In this document: positions 298 to 29,149 of the stretch, piece after piece
Layout: each line of letters begins with the position of its first letter
How positions within the stretch are numbered: the stretch's first letter is position 1
Source: Powellomyces hirtus
Lineage: Eukaryota > Chytridiomycota > Chytridiomycetes > Spizellomycetales > Powellomycetaceae
DNA length: 64,000 bases
Assembly: GCA_025526995.1 (NCBI GenBank)
Contig: JAHLKG010000001.1
Coordinates: forward strand, 1,178,001-1,242,000
Direction of reading: 5' to 3'
The notes under the pieces: generated by a model
Database searches by the model: none
The model's input: the letters and a program-made list of their open reading frames with translations, nothing else
Told to the model about the DNA's origin: nothing
Translations under genes and position numbers: made by a program

Positions 298-3200
298 CAA
301 CAAGATTAAAAGGATGACCCAGGAACTTGCTGCCATTGGAGCTTCCGTTTCTGAGGAGGACCATGTGTTCTCCTTGCTCTCTTCCCTTCCAGAAGCCTTT
401 GACACCCTTGTGATGACTCTGGAGTCGACCAGTGAGAAGCTGGACTTGGCTTTTGTGACATCCAGGCTGTTGCAGGAGGAAATGAGGCGTGCAGATGGAA
501 AGAAGAACTCTGGAAAGGCAGCAAAAGCCTTCTTCACACAAGCTGACACCAAAGGGAATGCTCAGAAGACCAACAAGGCTGGGGGAAAGCCAGATTGGAA
601 GAAGGAGGCAGTCTGTCACTACTGCAACAAGAAGGGCCACATCAAGAAGGAATGCCACAAGAGGGCAGCAGACGAGAAGAAGGGCCTAAACCAGGCCAAC
701 TCGACTCAACAGACGCCTGGAGGCTTTGCTTTCACCACCATTGGAACTCAGATGCCATCCCTGACATCCAACACTTGGATTTTGGACTCAGGAGCCTCTC
801 AGCACATGACTGGCCGCAGAGAGCTGTTTGGGGACTATGAGAAGATGTCTCCTGTTGCCATTGAGATGGCAGACAATCACACATTGGAAGCTGTGGGGCA
901 TGGAACGCTTCACACATGGGTGATCAACACAGAGGGGAAGACAGTGCCCCTGCAAATCCAGAACTGCTGGCACGTCCCCAAGATGACCAAGAACCTCCTA
1001 TCACTGGCTCGCCTTGCCAAAGCTGGAGCTTGTTTTGAAGTGGGACCACAGGCTGCTCGGATCATTGCAAAGGATGGGACGGCTTTCCTTGCCAAAGAGA
1101 ACCAATTTGTCTACACATTCGAGACAACACATGGGCAGGCAAATGCTGGGATTGCCCACAACGTTGGAAGGGACACAACAAGTCAGGACTTGTCCCTATG
1201 GCATCAGAGACTCGGCCATTTGAACGTTGCAGACATTGGAAGGCTCACCAAGCTTGCCAAGGGCGTTCAAACCAGTGGGAGCTTGAGCATTTGTGACACT
1301 TGTGCACTCAGCAAAGCAAGCAGAGCGCCATTCCCCAAGGCACAGGCCTCCAGAGCATCAGAGAAGCTGGGATTGATCCACACAGATGTCTGGGGACCAG
1401 TTGAACCACTCACAATCACTGGATATCGCTATTTCGTCACATTCATTGATGACAAGACGAGATATTTCCATGTTTGCCTTATGAAGACCAAGGGAGAAGT
1501 TGCTAGGCACTATCAGGAGCTGGAAGCAGCACTCGTCCCCCTACATGGAAAGCAGATCAAAGCTGTCAGATCCGACCCAGGAGGCGAGTACATGAGCAAC
1601 TTGCTAAGGGACCACTTCAAGGAGAAGGGCACACAGCATCAGAGGAGTTCAGTAAATACTCCACAGCAAAATGGTGTTGCTGAACGAGCCAACCGTACCC
1701 TTGTGGAGATGGGGAGATGTTTGTTGAAGCAGTCAGGCTTGGACAAGCGTTTCTGGGGAGAAGCAATCATGACAGCAGTCTATCTGAGGAACAGATCTCC
1801 CACTGTTGCATGCCCCAAGACACCTTATGAGATGTTCCATGGTATCCCACCATCTCTGGACATTTGAGGACGTTTGGATGCATTGCCTATGCCTACATTC
1901 AACCCAACAAGCGCCAGAAGCTGGATGATGCTGCCGTGAAGTGCATCATGCTGGGGTATAGCTCCCACAGCAAGGAATACCGGCTTATGGACATACTCAC
2001 TAAGAAGATCCTGTTCTCCAGAAGTGTCAAATTCGATGAGAAGAGCTTCATTCCATCCCTCCAGTCTGCTCAAACGCCTTAAGTGCCTGCTGAGAGCCTG
2101 GAAGTGGGAATTGGGCCTGAAATGAAGCTGCAGGATGTCAGTGACGAGCTGCAGGATGTCAGTGACGAGCTGCAGGATGTCAGTGACGACTCTGAGGACA
2201 CAGCCATGTCAGAGGGAGAGGAGAACATGAGGGAACGGACCCCTGAGCCGTCCTCTGACTATGAGAGTGCTGCAGAGCCTTCTCCAACCCCCAAAAGACT
2301 CAGGAAGCTGCCAGGAGAATGGTGGAAGGCTTCAAGCAATGCTGCAAACGTTGCTGCAGTTGCCTATGCTGTCTCCTTTGTCTCAAACAAGCCCACAAGC
2401 TACAAGGAGAGCCAGACGATGCCAGATGCTTCACAATGGCGTCAGGCTGCTCAGGAAGAGATGGATGCTCTTGCCAAGAATGGGACATGGCAACTTGTGG
2501 ATCTGCCAACCGGCAGAAAAGCTATTGGATGCAAGTGGGTCTTCAAACGAAAGCTGAAGGACACAGGAGAGCTTGACACAAGGCACGACTTGTTGCCAAA
2601 GGATTCTCTCAGAGAGAAGGATTGGACTATCAGGAGACATTTGCTCCCGTTGCCAAGTTTGGTCCCATGAGACTGCTGTTCTCCATCATTGCCACAGACA
2701 ACTTGGAGGCACATCAGATGGACGTGAAGACAGCATTCTTGCAAGGGGATCTGGACTATGTGTTCTACATGCGTCAACCGGAGGGCTTTGAGGATTCCAA
2801 GCATCCAGGACGAGTCTGCAAGCTTGGAAGACCCCTCTACGGCCTCAAGCAATCAGCAAGGCGCTTCAACCACAAGATTGACCACAAACTGAAGTCTATG
2901 GGCTTTGTGCAGTTGATTGCAGAGTCTTGCATGTACTACAGGAGCCAGAATGGGACAACAGAGAACATTCTGATCTATGTGGACGACCTCATTGTGGCCT
3001 CATCAAGCAAGGAACAGCTGGGGGATGTCAAGAAGGACCTGAGGCAAGCTTTTGAGATGACAGACCTTGGAGAGCTGAATTACTTCCTTGGGATTCACAT
3101 CAGATGCAGCAGAAGCACCCGCACCATCTGGTTGTCTCAGAAGAAGTATGTTGAAGAGGTTGTTTCGAAATTCAACATGGGAGATGCCAAGGTTCATGCC

Positions 3201-3903
3201 GAACATGGACTGCACCTCAGAAACAACATGGCACCTCAAAATGAGACAGACGAGCTGGAGATGAGCTCTGTGCAATACAGGAATGCAGTTGCCAGTTTGA
3301 TCTATGCCATGTTAGGAACTGCCTGGAAAGGAGCATTGGAGTGCTGCCAAGCGGATCATCAGATACCTGAAGGGCACAAGCGAACTTGGAATTCTTCTGG
3401 GAGGCAAAGACAATGCCTCTGAGGCTAGGAAGCTGGTTGGATACTCGGATTCCGACTATGCTGGATGTTTGGACACAAGTAGATCAACCACTGGATTCAT
3501 CTACATGTTCAATGGGCCTATCACCTGGCAATCCAAGCGGCAGACCACTGTAGCTCTTTCAAGCACGGAAGCAGAGTACATGGCACTAACCCAGTGCACC
3601 ACGGAAGCTGTTTGGCTTCGTCTGCTTGCAGGGGAGCTCGGATTCAAGCAGGATGGACCCACAATGCTCTTTGAGGACAACCAGGGTGCCATTGCTCTTG
3701 CTAAGAACCCGACATTGCATGCCAGCACCAAACACATTGAAGTGAGGTACCACTTTATCAGAGAAGCACTAGGACGCTTGGAGATTGCATTAGAGTATCT
3801 CTCGACTCAGGACATGGTTGCAGACATCTTGACAAAACCACTGGCTAGGGATCAGTTCTTGAAACTGAGGGACGCCTGTGGGATCACAAAACATGTTTCG
3901 TGA
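298..3903 (+). pseudogene. Family A copia gag-pol, copy A1 (defective)
   Basis: Ty1/copia polyprotein resuming after the solo LTR. In order it shows the gag C-terminus, a CCHC knuckle (CHYCNKKGHIKKEC), protease LDSGAS, the integrase HHCC finger (LWHQRLGHLN...CDTC) with core HTDVWGP, RSDPGGE and NGVAERAN, reverse transcriptase (MDVKTAFLQGDLD, YVDDLIVAS) and RNase H ending KHVS at 3903. The three integrase acidic residues are intact. The frame is broken several times: a 1-bp loss near 1858 puts a stop at 1867; a CCCCAA to CCTTAA change gives a stop at 2080-2082; a 4-bp loss near 2575 shifts the RT frame; and a deletion near 3320 joins LGT to KEHWSAAK out of frame. It cannot make a full polyprotein. 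Confidence 0.9.
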
Positions 3904-3910
3904 GTGGGAG

Positions 3911-4409
3911 TGTTGGAATCTACCTGTGGGCGCCTCTGGGAGGACTTAGAGCACACGGGACATGTGGGAGGACATCCACTTGTGTCTAGAATGGTCTGGA
4001 ATGGTCCAGAATGGTCTAGAACGATCCAGAATAGCTGGAGAGGGCCTGGGAAGGCCTAGAACACGTCTGGAGCGCTGATAGAAGCGCCAAGAAAAGGCAA
4101 AAAGACACCCTGTGATTGGGAACAATACTAGGCCAGGCCAGGGCCGTCTTGGCCAAGCTAGGGCACAGTTAGATTGTCACTACACATGTACTATGATCCA
4201 AATTGTTATAAAAGGACGCCCTCTGGGCATCCCCAACCAATATAATAACAGTCCAACACACTCTACTTGTCTAGTACACTCTGCCAAACACTACAGGCGA
4301 CCTTCCCTACCTTGGGAAGCACCTTCAGACCCTCTGCAAGTCTTGACAACCACCTAGCAACCTATCTGGTATGCTGAGTTCCTGTTTGTAGATGTCAAGA
4401 CGTCTCAAC
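3911..4409 (+). repeat. LTR of family A, subtype I (shared by A1 and delta-A2)
   Basis: It starts TGTTGGAATC directly after the purine-rich tract GAGTGGGAG, which follows the RNase H stop codon. It ends in TCTCAAC, one base short of the intact CAACA end. A TATA box (TATAAAAGG) lies at 4207-4215. The next base belongs to an RT-coding segment rather than a primer-binding site, so the LTR is fused to a deletion junction. Confidence 0.88.
3988..4032 (+). promoter_or_regulatory. 10-bp-stepped GAA repeat resembling a step-type heat-shock element
   Basis: GAA triplets begin at 3989, 3999, 4009, 4019 and 4029, exactly 10 bp apart in an imperfect 10-bp tandem repeat of the form ATGGTCYRGA. Fungal HSF is known to bind step-type arrays with this spacing. 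The block lies about 175 bp upstream of the LTR TATA box, where an upstream activating site would be expected. It recurs in the LTR at 5949 and in the inverted LTR at 35820-36321; subtype II LTRs keep about three steps. Heat or stress responsiveness is an inference. Confidence 0.45.
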
Positions 4410-5941
4410 TCTCCTTTGTCACAAACAAGCCCACAAGCTACAAGGAAAGCCAGACCATGCCAGATGCTTCACAATGGCATCAGGCTGCTCAGGAAGAGAT
4501 GGATGCTCTTGCCAAGAATGGGACATGGCAACTTGTGGATCTGCCAACCGGCAGAAAAGCTATTGGATGCAAGTGGGTCTTCAAACGAAAGCTGAAGGAC
4601 ACAGGAGAGCTTGACACAAGGCACGACTTGTTGCCAAAGGATTCTCTCAGAGAGAAGGATTGGACTATCAGGAGACATTTGCTCCCGTTGCCAAGTTTGG
4701 TCCCATGAGACTGCTGTTCTCCATCATTGCCACAGACAACTTGGAGGCACATCAGATGGACGTGAAGACAGCATTCTTGCAAGGGGATCTGGACTATGTG
4801 TTCTACATGCGTCAACCGGAGGGCTTTGAGGATTCCAAGCATCCAGGACGAGTCTGCAAGCTTGGAAGACCCCTCTACGGCCTCAAGCAATCAGCAAGGC
4901 GCTTCAACCACAAGATTGACCACAAACTGAAGTCTATGGGCTTTGTGCAGTTGATTGCAGAGTCTTGCATGTACTACAGGAGCCAGAATGGGACAACAGA
5001 GAACATTCTGATCTATGTGGACGACCTCATTGTGGCCTCATCAAGCAAGGAACAGCTGGGGGATGTCAAGAAGGACCTGAGGCAAGCTTTTGAGATGACA
5101 GACCTTGGAGAGCTGAATTACTTCCTTGGGATTCACATCAGATGCAGCAGAAGCACCCGCACCATCTGGTTGTCTCAGAAGAAGTATGTTGAAGAGGTTG
5201 TTTCGAAATTCAACATGGGAGATGCCAAGGTTCATGCCGAACATGGACTGCACCTCAGAAACAACATGGCACCTCAAAATGAGACAGACGAGCTGGAGAT
5301 GAGCTCTGTGCAATACAGGAATGCAGTTGCCAGTTTGATCTATGCCATGTTAGGAACTGCCTGGAAAGGAGCATTGGAGTGCTGCCAAGCGGATCATCAG
5401 ATACCTGAAGGGCACAAGCGAACTTGGAATTCTTCTGGGAGGCAAAGACAATGCCTCTGAGGCTAGGAAGCTGGTTGGATACTCGGATTCCGACTATGCT
5501 GGATGTTTGGACACAAGTAGATCAACCACTGGATTCATCTACATGTTCAATGGGCCTATCACCTGGCAATCCAAGCGGCAGACCACTGTAGCTCTTTCAA
5601 GCACGGAAGCAGAGTACATGGCACTAACCCAGTGCACCACGGAAGCTGTTTGGCTTCGTCTGCTTGCAGGGGAGCTCGGATTCAAGCAGGATGGACCCAC
5701 AATGCTCTTTGAGGACAACCAGGGTGCCATTGCTCTTGCTAAGAACCCGACATTGCATGCCAGCACCAAACACATTGAAGTGAGGTACCACTTTATCAGA
5801 GAAGCACTAGGACGCTTGGAGATTGCATTAGAGTATCTCTCGACTCAGGACATGGTTGCAGACATCTTGACAAAACCACTGGCTAGGGATCAGTTCTTGA
5901 AACTGAGGGACGCCTGTGGGATCACAAAACATGTTTCGTGA
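4410..5941 (+). pseudogene. Family A deletion derivative delta-A2 (RT and RNase H only)
   Basis: The sequence joins the LTR end directly to the RT-coding region, starting at TCTCCTTTGTCACAAAC. The leader, gag, protease, integrase and about 3.1 kb in total are missing compared with the 5,130-bp unit. It keeps the RT core (YVDDLIVAS) and RNase H, ending KHVS at 5941. It shares with A1 the 4-bp loss near the RT start, a 9-bp loss near 5238 and the LGT/KEHWSAAK deletion, so no functional RT is encoded. It is one period of a 2,038-bp tandem repeat. Confidence 0.88.
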
Positions 5942-5948
5942 GTGGGAG

Positions 5949-6447
5949 TGTTGGAATCTACCTGTGGGCGCCTCTGGGAGGACTTAGAGCACACGGGACA
6001 TGTGGGAGGACATCCACTTGTGTCTAGAATGGTCTGGAATGGTCCAGAATGGTCTAGAACGATCCAGAATAGCTGGAGAGGGCCTGGGAAGGCCTAGAAC
6101 ACGTCTGGAGCGCTGATAGAAGCGCCAAGAAAAGGCAAAAAGACACCCTGTGATTGGGAACAATACTAGGCCAGGCCAGGGCCGTCTTGGCCAAGCTAGG
6201 GCACAGTTAGATTGTCACTACACATGTACTATGATCCAAATTGTTATAAAAGGACGCCCTCTGGGCATCCCCAACCAATATAATAACAGTCCAACACACT
6301 CTACTTGTCTAGTACACTCTGCCAAACACTACAGGCGACCTTCCCTACCTTGGGAAGCACCTTCAGACCCTCTGCAAGTCTTGACAACCACCTAGCAACC
6401 TATCTGGTATGCTGAGTTCCTGTTTGTAGATGTCAAGACGTCTCAAC
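5949..6447 (+). repeat. LTR of family A, subtype I
   Basis: Copy of the LTR at 3911-4409, exactly 2,038 bp downstream, with the same purine tract before it, the same TATA box (6245-6253) and the same truncated end fused to RT sequence. Confidence 0.88.
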
Positions 6448-7336
6448 TCTCCTTTGTCACAAACAAGCCCACAAGCTACAAGGAAAGCCAGACCATGCCA
6501 GATGCTTCACAATGGCATCAGGCTGCTCAGGAAGAGATGGATGCTCTTGCCAAGAATGGGACATGGCAACTTGTGGATCTGCCAACCGGCAGAAAAGCTA
6601 TTGGATGCAAGTGGGTCTTCAAACGAAAGCTGAAGGACACAGGAGAGCTTGACACAAGGCACGACTTGTTGCCAAAGGATTCTCTCAGAGAGAGGGATTG
6701 GACTATCAGTAGACATTTGCTCCCGTTGCCAAGTTTGGTCCCATGAGACTGCTGTTCTCCATCATTGCCACAGACGACTTGGAGGCACATCAGATGGACG
6801 TGAAGACAGCATTCTTGCAAGGGGATCTGGACTGTGTGTTCTACATGCGCCAACTGGAGGGCTTTGAGGAGTCCAAGCATCCAGGACGAGTCTGCAAGCC
6901 TGGGAGACCCCTCTACGGCCTCAAGCAATCAGCAAGGCGCTTCAACCACAAGATTGACCACAAACTGAAGTCTGTGGGCTTTGTGCAGTTGACTGCAGAG
7001 CCTTGCATGTACTACAGGTGCCAGAATGGGACAACAGAGAACATTCTGATCTATGTGGATGACCTCATTGTGGCCTCATCAAGCAAGGAACAGCTGGGGG
7101 ATGTCAAGAAGAACCTGAGGCAAGCTTTTGAGATGACAGACCTTGGAGAGCTGAATTACTTCCTTGGGATTCACATCAGATGGAGCAGAAGCACCCGCAC
7201 CATCTGGTTGTCTCAGAAGAAGTATGTTGAAGAGGTTGTTTTGAAATTCAACATGGGAGATGCCAAGGTTCATGCCACACCTATGGAACATGGACTGCAC
7301 CTCAGAAACAACATGGCACCTCAAAACGCGACAGAC
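6448..7336 (+). pseudogene. Family A deletion derivative delta-A3, left part (RT)
   Basis: Same LTR-RT fusion as delta-A2, but with more substitutions (for example DCVFYMRQLEGF in place of DYVFYMRQPEGF). It keeps the 9 bp encoding TPM before EHGL that the other A copies have lost. The RT segment stops at GCGACAGAC, where B1 is inserted; AGAC (7333-7336) reappears at 13097-13100. Confidence 0.85.
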
Positions 7337-7704
7337 TATTGTAGATATCGGCGTTTCCAGTACTTTATCGGAAATGCAGAGGATTGACCGAATTCGATGT
7401 GGTCTCCAGTAAACTTCGTAAAGGGGGGTTTACAGAGCTCTTCTGTGATGCAGATGACGATGTAGCGTTGTCAGATGCACAGAGATGTAATGTATGTGAA
7501 TGTATTTTTATGTCTTAAAGTCTTTTCGGTAATGTCTCGCTTCGAGCGTTCTAATCTACTTTTTCTCCAATCACATGATCACACGTGATCCAATTCAGCT
7601 CTCAGCGTTACCGGTATGGTGGTCACGCGTTCTAGTCGGAGGATCCAAGTAAGGATCTAATGTAAGGACCAAACGTTGAGTGCGCAAGTCTCAACATTCC
7701 AACA
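7337..7704 (-). repeat. 3' LTR of B1
   Basis: On the minus strand it runs from TGTTGGAATG to CTACAATA, 368 bp. Its U5 end (plus-strand positions 7337 to about 7435) differs from that of the 5' LTR while the remainder is nearly identical. Confidence 0.88.
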
Positions 7705-7743
7705 CACCCCCTGTCCGAGCAATCGATCCGCGATGATGGGATT

Positions 7744-10700
7744 TTACTCATTCGGGAGCTCCGTCATAGACGCTTTCGTCATTGGCGTGATGGTGTTGTC
7801 GTAGTGCTTGATGCACATGCTTTTGCGATGGTATTTGAATGCCGGGGCTGGTAAAGGCTTCGTGAGCGAGTCGGCTACCATTTCAGCGGTGGGTAAGTAC
7901 TCCAGGTGAATCTCCTTATCGATGTGATCACGAATGAAGTGATGTCGAATGTTGATGTGCTTGGTACGGGCGTGATGCACGGGATTCATTGCCAACGAGA
8001 TGCATGACTGATTGTCTTCGTAGATCGTTGTAGGCCGAGCACTTTCATCGAGATATTCGGGGATTTGGAGTTCTTGCAGAAGTGAGCGAAGCCAGATTGT
8101 CTCTTGAGTGGCGAAGGAAAGTGCCATGTATTCAGCTTCGGTAGATGAGAGAGCAACAGTGGGTTGGCGCTTCGAAGCCCAAGTAACGGGGCCCGCATTT
8201 CCAATGTAGAAAAGGTAGCCAGTGATTGACTGTCGATCAATGATGTTGTTTCCCCAATCGGCATCGCTGTAGCCGTGAAGGGTGACGTTATTTCCGCCGA
8301 TGCAGAGGCTGTAATCTGATGTTCCCCGTAGGTAGCGAAGAACGCGCTTGGCAGCTTGCAGATGTTGAGGCGAAGGGTTGCTTGCGAAGCAAGAAAGCAT
8401 ACTGACCGCGACAGCGATGTCAGGACGCGTGCATATCATCAGGTACATGAGAGAACCAACGATTTCGCGATATTCTCCTTCTTGCGGATTAGGTGAAGTC
8501 TTTGTATTTTCGACTTTGTAGGGTTCGAGCTTGGTCTGGTCCATCGGAGTGTTGACGGGCTTGCAATCTTGCATACCAAAGCGCTCAAGGATGTCATTTA
8601 CATATGACTCTTGATCAAGGTAGATGACGTGCCTTGAGTAATCGCGTCGAACTCTCATTCCTAGGTAGTGGTTGACTTCGCCTAGGTCTGTCATGTTGAA
8701 CTCGTTGTGCAGGGATGTCTTGATTGACGAGATTTCCGATTCGGTCTTTGCGAAGATGAGGAGATCGTCGACGTAGACGGAGATGTACTGCGATGAGTCA
8801 CTTTCAGGTAGAGTTCTGATGTAGACGGCATTGTCATTTGCCAGGCGCTTGAATCCCAAAGAAGTCAGTTCTTTGTGAAGTAGGGAGTACCATTCGCGCG
8901 GGGCTTGTTTCAGACTGTAAAGGGCCTTTCGGAGTCGAAGGATGGTCCCGGGCGGAAAGCCAGAGCCTTCAGGGGCATAGATTAGGATGGTCTCGGTAAC
9001 AATCCCATTCAGGAATGCGGTTACTACATCCATTTGATGGCATTTCAAGCCTAGGCTGGCGGCGAGAGCGAGAAGGACGCGTTGGGTAGCAATCTTGGCA
9101 ACCGGAGCGTAGGTTTCGTTGTAGTCGATGCCGTAGCGTTGTTCGAAGCCTTTCACTACAAGCCGGGCCTTGTATCGTTGGGGTTGACCATTCAGGTCTC
9201 GCTTAATCTTGAATACCCATTTAGTGCGGATGGGCCGTTGATTGTGCGGTAAGGATTTGGGGTTAATGACTTCCCATGTTTCATTGGTATGAAGGGACTT
9301 CAATTCGGCATTTATGGCCTCGGTCCACTTCGGCGCGTCGTCTGATGAGAGCGCTTGTTTGTAAGTTTGGGGTTCTTCGGTACTTGCAGCTGAAAGAGCG
9401 CTTGCCGTCTTCTCGTTGATGTAGTCAGCGAAGACTGTCAAATGATTGACATTTTCGAGCGGTTCCCATGTATTATCTTTGTCTTCGAATCCTAGCCATT
9501 TGCAGAGGAATTCGGGGCCTTCCGGGCCATCACGTGAGTCGAGAATCTCTTCGACTTCGTAGAGTTCTTTGGGCGGAATGTAGTCTTTCGCGAGTTCGAG
9601 TGCTGAGTTTTCGTCGAACGTTACATCACGAGAAATGACTATTTCTTGACGGTTGTCATCCCAACAGCGGTAAGCGCCGTCAAATTCGTAACCAATGAGT
9701 TTGAGACGTGTGGCGCGCGGTGCCAACTTTGAGACTTGTTTTCTCTTGACAAGATGCACGAAGGCATCGGCCCAAATCACATGAAGGTGAGAAAGTGAGG
9801 GCTCTTTGCCGTTGAGTCGTTCGTACGGCGAAATGTTGTTATTGGACTTGTGGGGTAGGCGATTCCGTAAGTAGACTGATGTAGCCGCTAACTCGGTCCA
9901 GAGTTGTTTCGGGATGCCGTATGAGTGTTCCAAAGAACGAATGGTGTCGAACAGGGTGAGGTTGAACCTTTCAGCTACACTGTTAGACTGTGGGGAATCT
10001 GCAGCGGTGAGTTCGTGCAGAATGCCCTTTTTCGAAATGAATTCTTTCAGATCGTGATTGACAAACTCCACCCCTCGATCGGAATGAAGTTGTCTGACCC
10101 TTTCGTTGGTCTGTTTTTCGATGAAATTGATGAATTCAATCAATTTTGCAGTAGATTCGCTCTTCGTCTTCAAGAAGAAGATCCATGTGAAGCGTGAATA
10201 GTCATCAATCGCAATGAGGGCATATTTCTCATCGCCAACCGCGGGTATGTGCGGACCGTTTAGGTCGAAATGTAGGCGATCGAGTGGCGTCTTGGACCGT
10301 GTCATCGTACCGTTGAATGGTGAGCGCTTGTGCTTACCAAACTCGCAACCTTTGCAGACTTTGTTGGTCATTGGGAGCTTGAGTTGCTTCATGATGTGAG
10401 TGCCAGGATGGCCCAATCGGTGATGCCAGAGGGTTCCTTCGTTGACAGGAGAAAAGGGACCAGAACAAGCCCCAGAAGAAGCCGCCGAAGCAGCGGCGGC
10501 GGCGGCATCGGCGGATGGTGCCCCCGAGGGGGCACCATCCTTGGCATCATCCGATGCCTTTGGGGCGGCCGGCCCCCCACCACAGCACCCACAACTCTCA
10601 CTCTCCAGTGGGGGGCTGGCCAGCCCCAAATTGGGGCGGCCAGCCCCCTCACTGGAGAGTATGGGGCCGGCTGGCCCCCCATTCGGGGCAGCCGGCCCCT

Positions 10701-12615
10701 CCGACGTGGCTTGGAGCGGGGTAGAAAGCGTGACCGCCATACCGGTAGCGTCTGTCGACAGGTTGAGTGCTTGAATCGATGTATCGGACGCGTGTGTCGG
10801 TACATTGGACGCGTTTGTCCATTTTGTCAATTCGGTAGATGTATTTTTCGACGCGTGTGTCGGTACTTTGGACGCGTGTGTCCTTGAGCAAGTTTGAGTA
10901 GCGAAAGCCATCGGAGTTGGCGAGATGTGATACATTCCTCGAACGAGAGGTATGGTGATGTCGTTTGTAGTGCCATTGCAGTCTTGAATGATAGCGCTCT
11001 CATCTTCAAAGGTGACTCTCTTTCCATCTTTGGTGAGTGCGGAGACCGAGATGAGAGTCTTGGCGAGCTTCGGAACGTAGAGAACATCTGTGAGGGGTAC
11101 ATCTCCATCTGGAAGCTTCAAGATAGCGTTCCCTTTCGCTTTGGCATTGAGAAAGGCGTTGTTTCCAAATCTGACACGCGTTGAGTGCTCTTCGTAGGAT
11201 TTGAGAATGGAAATGTCATTCGTCATGTGCTGTGAGCAGCCCGAATCCAGGTAAGCCAATGTAGTGGCGTTATGTGCTTCTGCAATGTTGGCATTAGCAG
11301 CGGGTTTTAAGGCTTCGACTGCCTTGGCTTTGAGGGGACAATTGAATGGGGTATGTTCATTCGAATTGCATAACCAACAGGGGAAGTTCTGTCTCTTCTT
11401 CGAGTCTGTGGTCTTCTTTGCGTCGGTCTTCTTGTGACTTGAGCCGTCTTTCTTTGAAGGTTGGGCTTCGAGCGCGATGTTTTCGCTCTTCTTGGCGAAA
11501 CGATTGTTGTTTTGGTTACTCTTGTTACTTCCGTTATCCAGACGCTTGGCAGCTGCCATGAGACCATGGAGATCCTTGAAACTTTGAGTTCTGACGAGCT
11601 CTGCATAATGTTCATTCATTCCGCGAAGATAGAACCACTTGTAGATTTCGAACGGCACCTTCAAGGGGATCTGACTTGTGATCTTCGTGAATGAGGGATT
11701 GTACTGCGAGATGGAATGACTTCCTTGTCGGAGTCTTTCAAGTTGAGTGAGCAAAGTCTCTTTGTGATTGGTTGGTTGGTAACGCAAAAGGAAAGGAGGC
11801 TTGAAGGATTCCCAGTCTGTGATGGGCTCCACCATCCCTTGTTCGGCATCTTTCTGATGATTACGATACCATTGTTTTGCTTCGCCAGAGAGCTTCGTGA
11901 AGATGAATGAGAGTTGTTCTTCTTCAGATACAGGTTTTAGGCGAAAGACTAGAGTAAGTTGATCGATGAAGTCGGCAAGTTTTGAGAGATTTCCCGTCCC
12001 GTCGAATGTAGATACTGCATCAATCGCAGATTTGAAGTACGCAAATGATGTACGTTGTGCGTCACGGTCATCGCTCTTTCTGCTGCTCGTAGTTGTTGTG
12101 CTTTCCGTTGGGGAAGATGGACGAAAGTGAGGGGCAACTGGGGCTTCAACTTCGCCGTGAGTAATGTGTTGATGTAGGAAAGGGTACTCAAGGCCCGCTT
12201 TTGGGCTTCTCATCGGTGAAACGGCCATAGGATGACCACCGATATGAGGCTTTTCGTACTTCTCGGGTTGTTGATGGGAAGTTGATGTAGCGAGAGGGTT
12301 TGAACTAGTCAATAAAGTCCTCTCCAACCTGTCCATCCGATGGTCGAGCTTTTCGTTGATTTCCATCTTGAACCTCTGCAGAATTTGCATGACGATGTCA
12401 GTCGGTACTTCGGACGGTACTATCGCCGAGTCTGCATGAATTTCTCCATGATTCATCTCATCCACATCGGCATCTGCGTTGTGAGAATCATGGTAGATCG
12501 AGGCATCGATATTAACGTCTTTTTCAGCGTCAGGACCCCGTTGGGCTTCTCGTGTGGCTTGACGGGCTTGTTGGCGGGTCTGCACTCCTAGAATGGGAGA
12601 TCTTGCAGTAGGCAT
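7744..12615 (-). CDS. Family B copia gag-pol polyprotein with chromodomain (B1)
   Basis: A single frame of about 1,623 residues. The start chosen is the methionine of MPTARSP, conserved in all B copies; the frame is open to 12702 but that part is leader. Order: gag; CCHC knuckle (CWLCNSNEHTPFNC); protease LDSGCS; Ala/Gly/Pro-rich spacer; integrase HHCC finger (LWHHRLGHPG...CKGC) and core HFDLNGP, HSDRGVEF, NSVAERFN; chromodomain-like segment YEVEEILDSRD...CKWLGFEDKDNTWEP (about 9419-9570); RT ([18 protein letters not shown]); RNase H (YSDADWG, ALSSTEAEYMAL, EDNQS). This is the usual copia order with the chromodomain added after integrase. Gly to Val beside the second integrase Asp and LYSLKQAP in place of LYGLKQAP may weaken it. 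It is the best-preserved coding copy here. Confidence 0.93.
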   Translation of the reverse strand: MPTARSPILGVQTRQQARQATREAQRGPDAEKDVNIDASIYHDSHNADADVDEMNHGEIHADSAIVPSEVPTDIVMQILQRFKMEINEKLDHRMDRLERTLLTSSNPLATSTSHQQPEKYEKPHIGGHPMAVSPMRSPKAGLEYPFLHQHITHGEVEAPVAPHFRPSSPTESTTTTSSRKSDDRDAQRTSFAYFKSAIDAVSTFDGTGNLSKLADFIDQLTLVFRLKPVSEEEQLSFIFTKLSGEAKQWYRNHQKDAEQGMVEPITDWESFKPPFLLRYQPTNHKETLLTQLERLRQGSHSISQYNPSFTKITSQIPLKVPFEIYKWFYLRGMNEHYAELVRTQSFKDLHGLMAAAKRLDNGSNKSNQNNNRFAKKSENIALEAQPSKKDGSSHKKTDAKKTTDSKKRQNFPCWLCNSNEHTPFNCPLKAKAVEALKPAANANIAEAHNATTLAYLDSGCSQHMTNDISILKSYEEHSTRVRFGNNAFLNAKAKGNAILKLPDGDVPLTDVLYVPKLAKTLISVSALTKDGKRVTFEDESAIIQDCNGTTNDITIPLVRGMYHISPTPMAFATQTCSRTHASKVPTHASKNTSTELTKWTNASNVPTHASDTSIQALNLSTDATGMAVTLSTPLQATSEGPAAPNGGPAGPILSSEGAGRPNLGLASPPLESESCGCCGGGPAAPKASDDAKDGAPSGAPSADAAAAAASAASSGACSGPFSPVNEGTLWHHRLGHPGTHIMKQLKLPMTNKVCKGCEFGKHKRSPFNGTMTRSKTPLDRLHFDLNGPHIPAVGDEKYALIAIDDYSRFTWIFFLKTKSESTAKLIEFINFIEKQTNERVRQLHSDRGVEFVNHDLKEFISKKGILHELTAADSPQSNSVAERFNLTLFDTIRSLEHSYGIPKQLWTELAATSVYLRNRLPHKSNNNISPYERLNGKEPSLSHLHVIWADAFVHLVKRKQVSKLAPRATRLKLIGYEFDGAYRCWDDNRQEIVISRDVTFDENSALELAKDYIPPKELYEVEEILDSRDGPEGPEFLCKWLGFEDKDNTWEPLENVNHLTVFADYINEKTASALSAASTEEPQTYKQALSSDDAPKWTEAINAELKSLHTNETWEVINPKSLPHNQRPIRTKWVFKIKRDLNGQPQRYKARLVVKGFEQRYGIDYNETYAPVAKIATQRVLLALAASLGLKCHQMDVVTAFLNGIVTETILIYAPEGSGFPPGTILRLRKALYSLKQAPREWYSLLHKELTSLGFKRLANDNAVYIRTLPESDSSQYISVYVDDLLIFAKTESEISSIKTSLHNEFNMTDLGEVNHYLGMRVRRDYSRHVIYLDQESYVNDILERFGMQDCKPVNTPMDQTKLEPYKVENTKTSPNPQEGEYREIVGSLMYLMICTRPDIAVAVSMLSCFASNPSPQHLQAAKRVLRYLRGTSDYSLCIGGNNVTLHGYSDADWGNNIIDRQSITGYLFYIGNAGPVTWASKRQPTVALSSTEAEYMALSFATQETIWLRSLLQELQIPEYLDESARPTTIYEDNQSCISLAMNPVHHARTKHINIRHHFIRDHIDKEIHLEYLPTAEMVADSLTKPLPAPAFKYHRKSMCIKHYDNTITPMTKASMTELPNE
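10513..10699. repeat. GC-rich palindromes in the protease-integrase spacer of B1
   Basis: A perfect 13-bp-arm palindrome with a 2-nt centre lies at 10513-10540. A near-perfect palindrome of about 59 bp lies at 10601-10659 (arms starting CTCTCCAGTG). A 123-bp in-frame segment between the direct repeats GGGGCRGCCGGCCCC (10562-10576 and 10685-10699) is absent from B3. Because of the symmetry the opposite strand is also open (10442-10774), but that reading frame is a shadow. Confidence 0.8.
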
Positions 12616-12714
12616 CTTGACGGTGTGCTCGGTACTTTCTTGGCACTTGAATTTGACGGAAGACTTGTAGTTTACAGGTTTTACGAAGGGAGAATGATTC
12701 AAATTCGACCGGTC

Positions 12715-12729
12715 TCAGGGCTCATAACC
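12715..12729 (-). other. Primer-binding site of B1 (initiator tRNA-Met anticodon arm)
   Basis: The minus strand reads GGTTATGAGCCCTGA immediately after the 5' LTR. Its complement TCAGGGCTCATAACC is the anticodon-arm sequence of eukaryotic initiator tRNA-Met, including the CAT anticodon. Drosophila copia is known to prime from a half-tRNA cut in this loop. Confidence 0.8.
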
Positions 12730-13096
12730 TTTTGGAGATATCGGCGTTTCCAGTACTTTATCGGAAATGCAGAGGATTGGCTGAATTCAATGTGGCCTCC
12801 AGTATACTTCGTAGAGGGGAGTTACAGAGCTCTTCTGTGATGCAGATGACGATGTAGCGTCGTCAGATGCACAGAGATGTGATGTATGTGAATGTATTTT
12901 TATGTCATAAAGTCTTATCGGTAATGTCTCGCTTCGAGCGTTCTAATCTACTTTTTCTCCAATCACGTGATCACACGTGATCCAATTCAGCTCTCAGCGT
13001 TACCGGTATGGTGGTCACGCGTTCTAGTCGGAGAATCCAAGTAAGGATCTAATGTAAGGACCAAACGTTGAGTGCGCAAGTCTCAACATTCCAACA
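12730..13096 (-). repeat. 5' LTR of B1
   Basis: 367 bp, ending on the minus strand in CTCCAAAA next to the primer-binding site. It carries paired CACGTG-type boxes, as in other B LTRs. Confidence 0.88.
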
Positions 13097-13752
13097 AGAC
13101 AAGCTGGAGATGAGCTCTGTGCAATACAGGAATGCAGTTGGCAGTTTGATCTATGCCATGTTAGGAACTGCCTGGAAAGGAGCATTGGAGTGCTGCCAAG
13201 CGGATCATCAGATACCTGAAGGGCACAAGCGAACTTGGAATTCTTCTGGCAGGCAAAGACAATGCCTCTAAGCCTAGGAAGCTGGTTGGATACTTGGATT
13301 CCGACTATGCTGGATGTTTGGACACAAGTAGATCAACCACTGGATTCATCTACATGTTCAATGGGCCTATCACCTGGCAATCCAAGCGGCAGACCACTGT
13401 AGCTCTTTCAAGCACGGAAGCAGAGTACATGGCACTAACCCTGTGCACCAAGGAAGCTGTTTGGCTTCGTCTGCTTGCAGAAGAGCTCAGATTCAAGCAG
13501 GATGGACCCACAATGCTCTTTGAGGACAACCAGGGTGCCATTGCTCTTGCTAAGAACCCGACACTGCATGCCAGCACCAAACACATTGAAGTGAGGTACC
13601 ACTTTATCAGAGAAGCACTAGGACGCTTGGAGAATGCATTAGAGTATCTCTCGACTCAGGACATGGTTGCAGACATCTTGACAAAACCACTGGCTAGGGA
13701 TCAGTTCTTGAAACTGAGGGATGCCTGTGGGATCACAAAGCATGTTTCGTGA
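13097..13752 (+). pseudogene. Delta-A3, right part (end of RT and RNase H)
   Basis: Continuation of delta-A3 after B1, beginning AGACAAGCTGGAG. It contains the LGT/KEHWSAAK frame-breaking deletion and the whole RNase H segment ending KHVS at 13752. RNase H has YLDSDYAG where other copies have YSDSDYAG; the catalytic Asp is kept. Confidence 0.85.
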
Positions 13753-13759
13753 GTGGGAG

Positions 13760-14259
13760 TGTTGGGATCTACCTGTGGGCGCCTCTGGGAGGACTTAGAG
13801 CACACAGGACTTGTGGGAGGATCTCCACTTGTGTCTAGAATGATCTGGAATGATCCAGAATGGCTTGAGAGGATCTGGAAAGGCCTGGAACACGTCTGGA
13901 GTGCTGATATAAGCACCAAGGAAAGACAGAAGACACTCTGTGATTCAGGAACAATACTAGGCCAGATCAAGCCTGACTCAGAAAGGCCAGGGGTGTCTCG
14001 GGCAAGCTAGGGCACAGTTAGATTGTCACTACACATGTACTATGATCCAAGATGTTATAAAAGGACGCCCTCTGCACATCCCCAACCAATACAAAAACAG
14101 TCCAACACACTCTACTTGTCTAGTACACTCTGCCAAACACTACAGGCAACCTTTCCTACCTTGGGAAGCACCTTCAGACCCTCTGCAAGTCTTGACAACA
14201 ACCTAGCAACCTATCTAATATGCTGAGTTCCTGTTGATAGATGTCAAGACATCTCAACA
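13760..14259 (+). repeat. LTR of family A, subtype II (before A4)
   Basis: Exactly 500 bp, TGTTGGGATC to TCTCAACA, flanked by the polypurine tract on the left and a primer-binding site on the right. It serves as 3' LTR of delta-A3 and 5' LTR of A4. TATA box at 14056-14064. It differs from subtype I in the block around 13940-14010. Confidence 0.9.
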
Positions 14260-14274
14260 GGTTATGAGCCCTGA
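14260..14274 (+). other. Primer-binding site of A4 (initiator tRNA-Met anticodon arm)
   Basis: GGTTATGAGCCCTGA directly follows the LTR end CAACA and is identical to the primer-binding sites of B1, B2 and B3. The same site follows the LTRs at 19390-19404 and 24520-24534. Confidence 0.8.
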
Positions 14275-14926
14275 CACAGCTGTCTGAACATTACTGACTC
14301 CACCTCTATCCCTTGAAGGGAAACACGTCATTGTGTCTATCACTGGTACTGCTGAGGACTTGGAGAACTGTTTGAGCACTCGAGAGCCTAGATAGCAGAG
14401 CATAGGACACCTGCGTCTGACCATCAAACGAGCTATTGTCTGGACTGGACTGGACTGGAGTGGATTTTCTGGAGCAGGTTCTGACCACTTGCAGTTGAAC
14501 ACTGGGACTATCGCATTTTGCCACACTCTTTGCACAAGATGGCTGATGATTCTGACATCCGAGTGTCCATTGAGAGGTTCACTGGGGAGAACTTTCACCT
14601 TTGGAAGTTGAAAATGAAGATGCTGTTGATTGAGAAGGGACTTTGGGATGCCATTGACATCAAGGACAGCTCTGGAACTGCCAAGGCCACCAACACAGCA
14701 TCAGACAACTGGATACATCGCGATGAGAGAGCTCTGACTCTGCTGATCATGTCTTTGAACGATGAGCAATTGATGCATGTTCATGAGGCCGAATCCGCCC
14801 TTGAAGCATGGGAAAAACTGAGGGAGGTGCATGGGAAGAAGGGGGTTGCCAACAGACACTTTGTAAGACGTTGGTTCCTCACTGTGACAATGGACCCAAC
14901 TGATTCCATGACCATCCACATCAACA

Positions 14927-15292
14927 TATTGGAATGTTGAGCTTTGCGTACTCAACGTTAGTCCTTACATTAGATCCTTACTTGGAATCTCTGGCTAGAA
15001 TGTGTGACCGTCATATCGGTAATGCTAAGAGCTGAATTGGATCACGTGTGATCACGTGATTGGAGAAAAAGTAGATTAGAACGCTTGACAAGCGAGACAT
15101 TACCGATAAGACTTAAGACACAAAATACATTCACATACATTACATCTCTGTGCATATGACTACTATACACCGTCATCTGCATCACAGAAGAGCTCTGTAA
15201 ACTCTTTACAAAGGCAATACAAGCAGGCTGCCTCGAATTCGTTCAATCCTCTGCAATCCCGATAAAGTTCAGGAAGTGCCTTTTCTCCAATA
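14927..15292 (+). repeat. Solo LTR of family B in A4 gag
   Basis: 366 bp, TATTGGAATG to CTCCAATA (inverted ends TATTGGA/TCCAATA), flanked by CAACA at 14922-14926 and 15293-15297. This is a perfect 5-bp target duplication. The remnant is a single LTR, as left by LTR-LTR recombination. Confidence 0.93.
15015..15107 (+). promoter_or_regulatory. Paired CACGTG boxes within an inverted repeat (B LTR)
   Basis: Two CACGTG hexamers (15043-15048 and 15053-15058) lie one helical turn apart. They sit between perfect 10-bp inverted repeats ATCGGTAATG (15015-15024) and CATTACCGAT (15098-15107). CACGTG is the bHLH (Cbf1/Pho4-type) box. The arrangement recurs in other B LTRs; a regulatory role is inferred. 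Confidence 0.4.
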
Positions 15293-18200
15293 CAACAAGA
15301 TTAAAAGGATGACCCAGGAACTTGCTGCCATTGGAGCTCCCGTTTCTGAGGAGGACCATGTGTTCTACTTGCTCTCTTCCCTTCCTGAAGCCTTTGACAC
15401 CCTTGTGATGACTCTGGAGTCGACCAGTGAGAAGCTGGACTTGGCTTTTGTGACATCCAGGCTGTTGCAGGAGGAAATGAGGCGTGCAGATGGAAAGAAG
15501 AACTCTGGAAAGGCAGCAAAAGCCTTCTTCACACAAGCTGACACCAAAGGGAATGCTCAGAAGACCAACAAGGCTGGGGGAAAGCCAGATTGGAAGAAGG
15601 AGGCAGTCTGTCACTACTGCAACAAGAAGGGCCACATCAAGAAGGAATGCCACAAGAGGGCAGCAGACGAGAAGAAGGGCCTAAACCAGGCCAACTCGAC
15701 TCAACAGACGCCTGGAGGCTTTGCTTTCACCACCATTGGAACTCAGATGCCATCCCTGACATCCAACACTTGGATTTTGGACTCAGGAGCCTCTCAGCAC
15801 ATGACTGGCCGCAGAGAGCTGTTTGGGGACTATGAGAAGATGTCTCCTGTTGCCATTGAGATGGCAGACAATCACACATTGGAAGCTGTGGGGCATGGAA
15901 CGCTTCACACATGGGTGATCAACACAGAGGGGAAGACAGTGCCCCTGCAAATCCAGAACTGCTGGCACGTCCCCAAGATGACCAAGAACCTCCTATCACT
16001 GGCTCGCCTTGCCAAAGCTGGAGCTTGTTTTGAAGTGGGACCACAGGCTGCTCGGATCATTGCAAAGGATGGGACGGCTTTCCTTGCCAAAGAGAACCAA
16101 TTTGTCTACACATTCGAGACAACACATGGGCAGGCAAATGCTGGGATTGCCCACAACGTTGGAAGGGACACAACAAGTCAGGACTTGTCCCTATGGCATC
16201 AGAGACTCGGCCATTTGAACGTTGCAGACATTGAAAGGCTCACCAAGCTTGCCAAGGGCATTCAAACCAGTGGGAGCTTGAGCATTTGTGACACTTGTTC
16301 ACGCAGCAAAGCAAGCAGAGCACCATTCCCCAAGGCACAGGCCTCCAGAGCATCAGAGAAGCTGGGATTGATCCACACAGATGTCTGGGGACCAGTTGAA
16401 CCACCCACAATCACTGGATATCGCTATTTCGTCACCTTCATTAATGACAAGACGAGATATTTTCATGTTTGCCTTATAAAGACCAAGGGAGAAGTTGCTA
16501 GGCACTATCAGAAGCTGGAAGCAGCACTCGTCCCCCTACATGGAAAGCAGATCAAAGCTGTCAGATCCTACCCAGGAGGCGAGTACATGAGCCACTTGCT
16601 AAGGGACCACTTCAAGGAGAAGGGCACACAGCATCAGAGGAGTTCAGTAAATACTCCACAGCAAAATGGTGTTGCTGAACGAGCCAACCGTACCCTTGTG
16701 GAGATGGGGAGATGTTTGTTGAAGCAGTCAGGCTTGGACAAGCGTTTCTGGGGAGAAGCAATCATGACAGCAGTCTATCTGAGGAACAGATCTCCCCCTG
16801 TTGCATACCCCAAGATGCCTTATGAGATGTTCCATGGTATCCCACCATCTCTGGGACACTTGAGGATGTTTGGATGCATTGCCTATGCCTACATTCAACC
16901 CAACAAGCGCCAGAAGCTGGATGATGCTGCCATCCAATGCAGCATGCTGGGATATAGCTCCCACAGCAAGGAATACCCGCTTATGGATGTACAGACTAAG
17001 AAGATCCTGTTCTCCAGAAGTGTCATATTCAATGAGAAGAGCTTCATTCCATCTCTCCAGTCTGCTCAGATGCCCCAAGTGCCTGCTGAGAGCCTGAAAG
17101 TGAGAATTGGGCCTGAACTGAAGCTGCAGGATGTCAGTGACGTGCTGCAGCATGTCAGTGACAACTCTGAGGACACAGACATGTCAGAGGGAGAGGAGAA
17201 CGTGAGAGAACGGACCCCTGAGCCGTACTCTGACTATGAGAGTGCTGCAGAGCCTTCTCCAACCCCCAAAAGACTCAGGAAGCCGCCAGGAGAGTGGTAG
17301 AAGGCTTCAAGCAATGCTGCAAACGTTGCTGCAGTTGCCTATACTGTCTCCTTTGTCACAAACAAGCTCACAAGCTACAAGGAGAGCCAGACCATGCCAG
17401 ATGCTTCACAATGGCGTCAGGCTGCTCAGGAAGAGATGGATGCTCTTGTCAAGAATGGGACATGGCAACTTGTGGATCTGCCAACGGGCAGAAAAGCTAT
17501 TGGATGCAAGTGGGTCTTCAAACAAAAGCTGAAGGACACAGGAGAGCTTGACAGATACAAGGCAAGACTTGTTGCCAAGGGATTCTCTCAGCGAGAGGGA
17601 TTGGACTATCAGGAGACGTTTGCTCCTGTTGCCAAGTTTGGTCCCATGAGACTGCTGTTCTCCATTATTGCCACAGACGACTTGGAAGCACATCAGATGG
17701 ACGTGAAGACAGCATTCTTGCAAGGGGATCTGGACTATGTGTTCTACATGCGTCAACCGGAGGGCTTTGAGGATTCCAAGCATCCAGGACGAGTCTGCAA
17801 GCTTGGAAGACCCCTCTACGGCCTCAAGCAATCAGCAAGGCGCTTCAACCACAAGATTGACCACAAACTGAAGTCTATGGGCTTTGTGCAGTTGATTGCA
17901 GAGTCTTGCATGTACTACAGGAGCCAGAATGGGACAACAGAGAACATTCTGATCTATGTGGACGACCTCATTGTGGCCTCATCAAGCAAGGAACAGCTGG
18001 GGGATGTCAAGAAGGACCTGAGGCAAGCTTTTGAGATGACAGACCTTGGAGAGCTGAATTACTTCCTTGGGATTCACATCAGATGCAGCAGAAGCACCCG
18101 CACCATCTGGTTGTCTCAGAAAAAGTATGTTGAAGAGGTTGTTTCGAAATTCAACATGGGAGATGCCAAGGTTCATGCCGAACATGGACTGCACCTCAGA

Positions 18201-18889
18201 AACAACATGGCACCTCAAAATGAGACAGACGAGCTGGAGATGAGCTCTGTGCAATACAGGAATGCAGTTGCCAGTTTGATCTATGCCATGTTAGGAACTG
18301 CCTGGAAAGGAGCATTGGAGTGCTGCCAAGCGGATCATCAGATACCTGAAGGGCACAAGCGAACTTGGAATTCTTCTGGCAGGCAAAGACAATGCCTCTA
18401 AGCCTAGGAAGCTGGTTGGATACTTGGATTCCGACTATGCTGGATGTTTGGACACAAGTAGATCAACCACTGGATTCATCTACATGTTCAATGGGCCTAT
18501 CACCTGGCAATCCAAGCGGCAGACCACTGTAGCTCTTTCAAGCACGGAAGCAGAGTACATGGCACTAACCCTGTGCACCAAGGAAGCTGTTTGGCTTTGT
18601 CTGCTTGCAGAAGAGCTCAGATTCAAGCAGGATGGACCCACAATGCTCTTTGAGGACAACCAGGGTGCCATTGCTCTTGCTAAGAACCCGACACTGCATG
18701 CCAGCACCAAACACATTGAAGTGAGGTACCACTTTATCAGAGAAGCACTAGGACGCTTGGAGAATGCATTAGAGTATCTCTCGACTCAGGACATGGTTGC
18801 AGACATCTTGACAAAACCACTGGCTAGGGATCAGTTCTTGAAACTGAGGGATGCCTGTGGGATCACAAAGCATGTTTCGTGAGTGGGAG

Positions 18890-19389
18890 TGTTGGGATCT
18901 ACCTGTGGGCGCCTCTGGGAGGACTTAGAGCACACAGGACTTGTGGGAGGACCTCCACTTGTGTCTAGAATGATCTGGAATGATCCAGAATGGCTTGAGA
19001 GGATCTGGAAAGGCCTGGAACACGTCTGGAGTGCTGATATAAGCACCAAGGAAAGACAGAAGACACTCTGTGATTCAGGAACAATACTAGGCCAGATCAA
19101 GCCTGACTCAGAAAGGCCAGGGGTGTCTCGGGCAAGCTAGGGCACAGTTAGATTGTCACTACACATGTACTATGATCCAAGATGTTATAAAAGGACGCCC
19201 TCTGCACATCCCCAACCAATACAAAAACAGTCCAACACACTCTACTTGTCTAGTACACTCTGCCAAACACTACAGGCAACCTTTCCTACCTTGGGAAGCA
19301 CCTTCAGACCCTCTGCAAGTCTTGACAACAACCTAGCAACCTATCTAATATGCTGAGTTCCTGTTGATAGATGTCAAGACATCTCAACA
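18890..19389 (+). repeat. LTR of family A, subtype II (between A4 and A5)
   Basis: 500 bp, nearly identical to 13760-14259, followed by the same primer-binding site at 19390-19404. Confidence 0.9.
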
Positions 19390-19668
19390 GGTTATGAGCC
19401 CTGACACAGCTGTCTGAACATTACTGACTCCACCTCTATCCCTTGAAGGGAAACACGTCATTGTGTCTATCACTGGTACTGCTGAGGACTTGGAGAACTG
19501 TTTGAGCACTTGAGAGCCTAGATAGCAGAGCATAGGACACCTGCGTCTGACCATCAAACAAGCTATTGTCTGGACTGGACTGGACTGGAGTGGATTTTCT
19601 GGAGCAGGTTCTGACCACTTGCGGTTGAACACTGGGACTATCGCATTTTGCCACACTCTTTGCACAAG

Positions 19669-22600: not shown

Positions 22601-24012
22601 TGTGGATCTGCCAACGGGCAGAAAAGCTATTGGATGCAAGTGGGTCTTCAAACAAAAGCTGAAGGACACAGGAGAGCTTGACAGATACAAGGCAAGACTT
22701 GTTGCCAAGGGATTCTCTCAGCGAGAGGGATTGGACTATCAGGAGACGTTTGCTCCTGTTGCCAAGTTTGGTCCCATGAGACTGCTGTTCTCCATTATTG
22801 CCACAGACGACTTGGAAGCACATCAGATGGACGTGAAGACAGCATTCTTGCAAGGGGATCTGGACTATGTGTTCTACATGCGTCAACCGGAGGGCTTTGA
22901 GGATTCCAAGCATCCAGGACGAGTCTGCAAGCTTGGAAGACCCCTCTACGGCCTCAAGCAATCAGCAAGGCGCTTCAACCACAAGATTGACCACAAACTG
23001 AAGTCTATGGGCTTTGTGCAGTTGATTGCAGAGTCTTGCATGTACTACAGGAGCCAGAATGGGACAACAGAGAACATTCTGATCTATGTGGACGACCTCA
23101 TTGTGGCCTCATCAAGCAAGGAACAGCTGGGGGATGTCAAGAAGGACCTGAGGCAAGCTTTTGAGATGACAGACCTTGGAGAGCTGAATTACTTCCTTGG
23201 GATTCACATCAGATGCAGCAGAAGCACCCGCACCATCTGGTTGTCTCAGAAGAAGTATGTTGAAGAGGTTGTTTCGAAATTCAACATGGGAGATGCCAAG
23301 GTTCATGCCGAACATGGACTGCACCTCAGAAACAACATGGCACCTCAAAATGAGACAGACGAGCTGGAGATGAGCTCTGTGCAATACAGGAATGCAGTTG
23401 CCAGTTTGATCTATGCCATGTTAGGAACTGCCTGGAAAGGAGCATTGGAGTGCTGCCAAGCGGATCATCAGATACCTGAAGGGCACAAGCGAACTTGGAA
23501 TTCTTCTGGGAGGCAAAGACAATGCCTCTGAGGCTAGGAAGCTGGTTGGATACTCGGATTCCGACTATGCTGGATGTTTGGACACAAGTAGATCAACCAC
23601 TGGATTCATCTACATGTTCAATGGGCCTATCACCTGGCAATCCAAGCGGCAGACCACTGTAGCTCTTTCAAGCACAGAAGCAGAGTACATGGCACTAACC
23701 CAGTGCACCAAGGAAGCTGTTTGGCTTTGTCTGCTTGCAGAAGAGCTCAGATTCAAGCAGGATGGACCCACAATGCTCTTTGAGGACAACCAGGGTGCCA
23801 TTGCTCTTGCTAAGAACCCGACACTGCATGCCAGCACCAAACACATTGAAGTGAGGTACCACTTTATCAGAGAAGCACTAGGACGCTTGGAGAATGCATT
23901 AGAGTATCTCTCGACTCAGGACATGGTTGCAGACATCTTGACAAAACCACTGGCTAGGGATCAGTTCTTGAAACTGAGGGATGCCTGTGGGATCACAAAG
24001 CATGTTTCGTGA
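19669..24012 (+). pseudogene. Family A copia gag-pol, copy A5 (split by solo LTR, defective)
   Basis: Same organisation and lesions as A4: gag from 19669, solo LTR in gag, integrase Asp to Tyr, TGG to TAG at 22428-22430, and the RT-RNase H deletion. Private changes include LDSGVS at the protease active site, in place of LDSGAS, and KSYPGGE in integrase. RNase H restores YSDSDYAG and ends at 24012. Confidence 0.9.
20057..20422 (+). repeat. Solo LTR of family B in A5 gag
   Basis: Copy of 14927-15292 at +5,130 bp, with CAACA on both sides (20052-20056 and 20423-20427). Confidence 0.93.
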
Positions 24013-24019
24013 GTGGGAG

Positions 24020-29142: not shown

Positions 29143-29149
29143 GTGGGAG

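Follow-up and report, generated by a model that had tools for sequence, protein, structure and literature searches.

A Ty1/copia retrotransposon family with a predicted HP1-type chromodomain at the end of its integrase

The 64-kb stretch of DNA analysed here (the window) contains three copies, B1, B2 and B3, of a retrotransposon family, B, which from its sequence is assigned to Ty1/copia and whose integrase is predicted to end in a chromodomain of the HP1 or H3K9me-reading type. In all three copies a chromodomain of 52 residues was found between the integrase and the reverse transcriptase (RT), at 9409–9564 on the minus strand in B1 (LYEVEE...INEK, with cage residues Tyr, Trp and Phe), at 32123–32278 on the minus strand in B2 and at 45928–46083 on the plus strand in B3. 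An earlier note on this DNA had placed such a domain right after the integrase in each copy, and the profile search which it proposed agreed, with significant matches to Pfam Chromo (PF00385) of 45.9, 45.6 and 37.8 bits for B1, B2 and B3 (E-values of 5e-12, 7e-12 and 2e-9) against a curated cut-off of 25.1 bits. The positions it gave lie within 12 bases of the measured domains, no strand having been named, and a plus-strand reading from 9419 meets stops in its first frame. A 66-residue comparison with B2 gives identities of 95% for B1 and 94% for B3; the CKW-containing motif that had been read in all three copies is present in B1 and B2, with RKW in its place in B3. The Pfam match covers positions 1–42 of 53 only. 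The domain follows the SH3-like domain of the integrase and, since the RT match starts approximately 40 residues past its end in B1, it lies mid-polyprotein, the Pfam order of SH3_retrovirus, Chromo and RVT_2 bearing out the proposed placement at the integrase C-terminus.

The fold was modelled from B2 (window 32078–32545, minus strand). It is predicted to consist of a three-strand sheet and a helix, the outcome looked for in the structure check suggested by the note, and the model matches the chromodomains of CBX1 and Rhino bound to H3K9me3. The closest solved relatives, both by sequence and by fold, include H3K9me3 readers. The Tyr, Trp and Phe of the domain, already read as an aromatic cage in the note, do align with the Tyr, Trp and Phe of HP1beta/CBX1, which we take to be the cage positions. 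By profile, closest solved relatives and predicted fold, this is a genuine chromodomain. The domain recurs at the same place in the three copies of the window, at 52 of the 150 Chromo places that were scored in the genome, and in 13 other proteins, which rules out chance or artefact.

The gag-pol ORF is open in B1 (7744–12702, minus strand, 1652 aa) and B2 (30458–35332, minus strand, 1624 aa). That of B3 (43000–47748, plus strand) is broken into several frames, with open stretches at 43000–45417, 45559–46317 and 46633–47748, so that the description of the three copies as full-length holds for their span and not for the coding state of B3. Pairs of LTRs of approximately 368 bp were found in all three copies: in B1 the 3' LTR at 7337–7704 and the 5' LTR at 12729–13096 (minus strand, 15 differences in 367 aligned columns), in B2 the 3' LTR at 30051–30418 and the 5' LTR at 35446–35812 (minus strand), and in B3 the 5' LTR at 42520–42886 and the 3' LTR at 47788–48153 (plus strand). 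A clean 5-bp target duplication, GAATC, stands just before and just after B3. The duplication of B1, AGAC flanking the 5' LTR, is clean over 4 bp, or 5 bp with one mismatch, and no matching target duplication was found at the two ends of B2. The primer-binding site of B1, GGTTATGAGCCCTG (12716–12729, minus strand), is a 14-base complement to the anticodon arm of tRNA-Met(CAT). It is identical after the 5' LTR of all three copies, and the matching 17-base string CAGGGCTCATAACCCTG occurs without mismatch at four genomic places, each within a tRNA-Met(CAT) gene. Priming from the anticodon arm of what is presumably the initiator tRNA-Met is, we assume, that of a hemivirus-type copia element. The polypurine tract ACAGGGGGTG (7705–7714, minus strand) lies directly before the 3' LTR of B1.

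Within B1, Pfam matches on the minus strand locate a Gag capsid of the Ty3_capsid/Retrotrans_gag type, not of the copia type PF14223 (11530–12024), the integrase core (rve, 9991–10275), the SH3-like C-terminal domain of the integrase (SH3_retrovirus, 9604–9810) and a copia-type RT (RVT_2, 8542–9285). A zinc knuckle CX2CX4HX4C was recognised by motif at 11335–11379 (minus strand), and a DSGC motif at 11215–11253 (minus strand), near a Pol_BBD match, is taken to be the protease. The complete Pfam order in B1 and B2 is Ty3_capsid/Retrotrans_gag, Pol_BBD, gag_pre-integrs, rve, SH3_retrovirus, Chromo and RVT_2, with the RNase H region located by motif only. Scans of the window for promoter-like sequences and tRNAs gave nothing of use.

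B1 is inserted in a unit of a tandem array, the uninterrupted form of which is seen at 18210–18250. This array (13097–29628) comprises approximately 3.2 tandem units of 5130 bp of a family called A in the window and D elsewhere (as read from locus L070), an ordinary copia that has a PF14223 Gag and lacks a Chromo match. The array shares its sequence with a second tandem, of 2038 bp, located at 2372–7336. At the D gag of each array unit, stretches at 14927–15290, 20057–20420 and 25187–25550 show approximately 85% identity to the B LTR. They probably derive from a solo LTR, of a family related to B, that had inserted there before amplification of the array, and the Gag of L070 continues through this stretch. 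Elsewhere in the window are a diverged relative of B (37331–38586, approximately 69%), a B-related 5' fragment (39222–40168, approximately 95–96%), a minus-strand ORF with a Ty3_capsid match that overlaps and flanks the end of B3 (48069–49016) and, adjoining the repeat island, a host formin gene (50616–56395, minus strand; FH2, Drf_FH3, Drf_GBD).

The assignment to Ty1/copia rests on several features. The RVT_2 matches of B1 and B2 reach 214.2 and 217.1 bits against a cut-off of 31.6, both copies have the copia order Gag-PR-IN-RT-RH with the integrase ahead of the RT (RH by motif), and the LTRs and short target duplication of Ty1/copia elements are present, the latter in B1 and B3. The PF14223 Gag, which is typical of copia but not defining, is absent. 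One trait of chromoviruses, a chromodomain at the integrase C-terminus, is present in B, but a gypsy RT and an integrase after RNase H are not; a chromovirus with a rearranged pol is ruled out, RT and integrase both being of copia type. A chromodomain match beside an integrase is thus no safe mark of gypsy when fungal transposons are annotated.

A Pfam Chromo search of the genome, in which 150 of 455 candidates were scored, gave at least 150 places. Of the 150, 21 fell within B hits and 69 had a gypsy H2C2 place 0.5–3.5 kb upstream, a sorting that drew on part of 150 H2C2 places. The remaining 60 loci, which were fetched, comprised 31 of B, nine of a second family, C, five host genes (by eye) and 15 without an adjacent copia RT; the 21 and the 31 make up the 52 B places given above, the window copies among them. 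The 15 loci were taken as gypsy-like, partly from absence of evidence, and one of them, L021, has a marginal integrase match (E 0.001). Family C (L009–L015, L017, L018 and L069) is a second copia family with a chromodomain, distant from B at approximately 30% identity in integrase and 38% in RT. In L069 (C23:550300–556600) a single frame contains Pol_BBD, gag_pre-integrs, rve, SH3_retrovirus, Chromo (62.5 bits) and RVT_2. The Gag frame of C (403 aa) matches no Pfam family and weakly matches the Gag profile of the B relatives, at 40.9 bits, a score equalled by some ordinary copia proteins.

Two homologue searches (the best 120 of 1093 and the best 120 of 946) yielded 232 different proteins, 13 of which, among the matches listed, have a clear chromodomain together with a copia RT (P0001–P0007, P0009, P0010, P0137, P0140, P0146 and P0215); P0011 has a decayed chromodomain of 14.7 bits. 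P0215 bears the name of Powellomyces hirtus, a chytrid, and P0009, which carries a bacterial bin name, is probably contamination. The Gag type of these relatives was taken from precomputed Pfam labels, a Pfam scan of three and a Gag profile search. By the precomputed labels, Retrotrans_gag is present in ten of the 13, the others being P0009, which begins within pol, P0140 and P0215. The last matches the Gag profile at 167.7 bits, being itself in the set from which the profile was built. The profile was built partly on the conventional copia protein P0015 and spans the zinc knuckle and the start of the protease, so that weak matches (P0015 at 77 bits and lower) mean little. A protein search for the distribution of the Gag gave no match at E <= 1e-5, and none of the B relatives sought in viral_contigs was confirmed. 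A plant protein, P0179 of Tanacetum coccineum, is labelled Retrotrans_gag, Ty3_capsid and RVT_2 with no Chromo, and is either a gene-prediction fusion or another mixed element.

A tree of integrase and RT (IN+RT) was constructed from 64 proteins with the chromodomain excluded. It placed the 15 chromodomain rows and P0011 in one clade (97/80), recovered in 96% of 200 bootstrap trees, a bootstrap which had not settled (correlation 0.987); in a quick tree the same 16 rows grouped together with an SH-aLRT of 85. Chromodomain elements were the queries of the searches that supplied the rows; P0132 was excluded for its long branch and further proteins by filters on identity and length, and C and P0137 are on long branches. 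Within this sampled set, the sequences place B in a deep clade of chromodomain copia elements, most of which would also have a Ty3-type Gag.

It is possible, and is put forward tentatively, that a chromodomain was gained more than once in this clade, a chromovirus-like one in the branch of B and an HP1-like one in that of C, the latter possibly from a host HP1 gene. The chromodomain of C is closer to that of host HP1 (41%) than to that of B (32%), and a chromodomain tree groups the B-branch domains with a gypsy domain (94/84), with C, P0137 and host HP1 grouping weakly (79/27). However, both the identities and the 94/84 grouping come from an alignment of 58 columns only, C and P0137 are long branches, and the domain most identical to that of B, at 43%, belongs to the host (L016), so that such low identities cannot tell the sources apart. 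The IN+RT tree, moreover, requires a single gain, and a single clade of all copia chromodomains was not rejected (p-AU 0.097, two long host rows excluded). A wider reading, which we think rather unlikely, is that an old fungal copia lineage extending from the chytrid to the genome studied here is a mosaic in which copia pol is combined with a Ty3-type Gag and an integrase chromodomain that reads H3K9me, that it converged on the heterochromatin homing of chromoviruses, and that in C the domain was replaced by a host HP1 copy.

As to function, it is suspected with moderate confidence that the integrase chromodomain of B docks on H3K9-methylated nucleosomes and so steers B into heterochromatin, this being the best explanation as a whole, anatomy included. 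The protease would cut the polyprotein so that the mature integrase retains its chromodomain, which would then dock the pre-integration complex on H3K9-methylated nucleosomes. New insertions would thereby be directed to heterochromatin already in place and kept from genes, which is what has been proposed for chromoviruses. Homing to H3K9-methylated chromatin is suggested by the host having both HP1 and a match to Pre-SET, by CpG decay in B and by the nearness of B to gypsy elements, for which D has no excess. The host is regarded as a fungus on the basis of 14 Fungal_trans matches. Its HP1-like gene, at C12, comprises both a chromo and a chromo shadow part; the Pre-SET match is a single place, and the genome also has 14 DNA_methylase places (exons, duplicates and gene types pooled). 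Between copies, 54 of 89 transitions fall at CpG/TpG for B1 and B2 (17 transversions), 89 of 147 for B1 and B3 (39 transversions) and 90 of 165 for B2 and B3 (46 transversions), approximately 13% of bases being in CpG. A smaller share is seen when the two LTRs of one copy are compared (4/10, 6/15 and 7/13 transitions). As raw counts, these differences look like the decay of methylated CpG.

B places were compiled from 29 genome-search hits and the 31 sorted Chromo loci, and 49 of these 60 lie on 24 contigs of known length of at least 300 kb. Of the 49, 36 have a gypsy H2C2 place no more than 25 kb away, against a uniform mean of 7.9, and 12 have one no more than 10 kb away, against 3.9; neither count was reached in 2000 runs, although the copies are non-independent and the uniform null disregards repeat islands, nesting or local duplication and selection against gene hits. 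The chromodomain-less D shows no such excess, with 22 of 103 within 25 kb (uniform 17.9; 336 of 2000 runs as high) and 5 of 103 within 10 kb (uniform 8.1; 1840 of 2000 runs), its places being those on the contigs considered among 150 scored of 630 candidates, with D defined by RVT_2 score and only L070 and the window array read.

B might instead pile up passively in heterochromatin, where nested islands grow and insertions elsewhere are lost to selection, the chromodomain adding little. Nesting alone is weak evidence for a tether, because transposon islands also form in other ways, and B1 is itself located inside a D unit. The contrast with D argues against such passive accumulation, which we consider unlikely, and is better evidence for a tether than nesting, though indirect and not clean. 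It is not decisive, since D may have targeting of its own, and not clean, since an excess within 50 kb of D copies is seen for both B and gypsy as well (22 of 34, uniform 5.1, and 25 of 71, uniform 10.7; 0 of 5000 runs for each), a count made on the 16 contigs that hold at least two D copies. Within 10 kb the counts are 5 of 34 for B (uniform 2.2; 271 of 5000 runs) and 3 of 71 for gypsy (uniform 4.3; 4115 of 5000 runs). With enrichment at 50 kb and not clearly at 10 kb, B and gypsy seem to share a zone around the D clusters and not the clusters themselves, B1 being the exception. D copies (RVT_2 places only) lie in dense clusters, mostly one per contig (C8:380–441k, C28:3–59k, C16:513–599k and others), which may mark centromeres.

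Less likely still, the chromodomain is genuine but no longer reads H3K9me, aiding instead the binding of integrase to DNA, RNA or itself, with B landing by other cues. Such a role has been argued for some gypsy integrase chromodomains, and some, that of Tf1 among them, function with no clear reading of H3K9me. Ligands vary among chromodomains, and the last part of the B domain, beyond the Pfam match, has diverged. Against this, the aromatic cage is complete in 31 of 31 B loci and nine of nine C loci (loci selected for a good chromodomain score), all three cage places are aromatic in each of the 15 chromodomain copia proteins of the alignment (the decayed P0011 retaining Trp alone), and H3K9me3 readers are among the closest solved relatives, as described above. 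The genome lends itself to a comparison of the effect of the domain on where elements accumulate, one nucleus holding two chromodomain copia families, an abundant chromodomain-less copia and gypsy.

The earlier note, whose author knew of no well-described copia lineage with this domain, needs correcting here: a putative integrase chromodomain was reported in 2009 for CoDi-A (CoDi-I), a Ty1/copia lineage of diatoms (PMC2774666 and PMC5348765, in the parts available). The available part of PMC2774666 remarks that no other copia with a chromodomain was then known. A fungal copia with a chromodomain was not found in the open-access papers searched, a coverage leaving out most subscription papers and bioRxiv preprints; 'chromo' is absent from the main text of PMC5445492, which covers 27 fungal copia clades, as is 'chromodomain' from the main text of PMC6875170. 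Mavericks and chromoviruses are named as chromodomain carriers in the part of PMC10799480 available, and in the literature surveyed, in the portions accessible, it is mainly with Ty3/gypsy chromoviruses that homing to heterochromatin through an integrase chromodomain is associated. With CoDi-A in print since 2009 and no fungal case found in the open-access papers searched, chromodomain copia elements are already known as a kind, and the clade described here, with its predicted Ty3-type Gag, appears to be new. The Ty3-type Gag of B, the second chromodomain copia family C and the wider clade go beyond the earlier note.

Like B, CoDi-A belongs to Ty1/copia, and its putative chromodomain is likewise placed at the C-terminus of the integrase and so mid-polyprotein (PMC2774666, PMC5348765). 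It differs in belonging to diatoms and not fungi, and the available parts of these papers make no mention of a Ty3-type Gag. Integrase chromodomains outside the classic chromoviruses are also described, in the passages available, for Chronos of oomycetes and for gypsy lineages of Ectocarpus, both of which differ from B in being Ty3/gypsy (PMC5348765, PMC12477816). The chromodomains of HP1/CBX1 and Rhino are like that of B in fold, cage and closest solved sequence; unlike the B integrase, they belong to host chromatin proteins. Ty5 of yeast, also a copia element, is likewise primed by a half-tRNA-Met, and it targets heterochromatin through the C-terminal region of its integrase, but there the region is a short Sir4-binding peptide and not a histone-reading domain. 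The chromoviruses share with B the chromodomain on the integrase C-terminus and the Ty3-type Gag, and in this genome B is found close to gypsy integrase places; B differs from them in its RVT_2, its copia-type integrase and protease matches and its PR-IN-RT order, by reason of which its chromodomain is internal and not at the end of pol. If a clade of chromodomain copia elements does use this device of the chromoviruses, homing would be portable between superfamilies and workable from the middle of a polyprotein.
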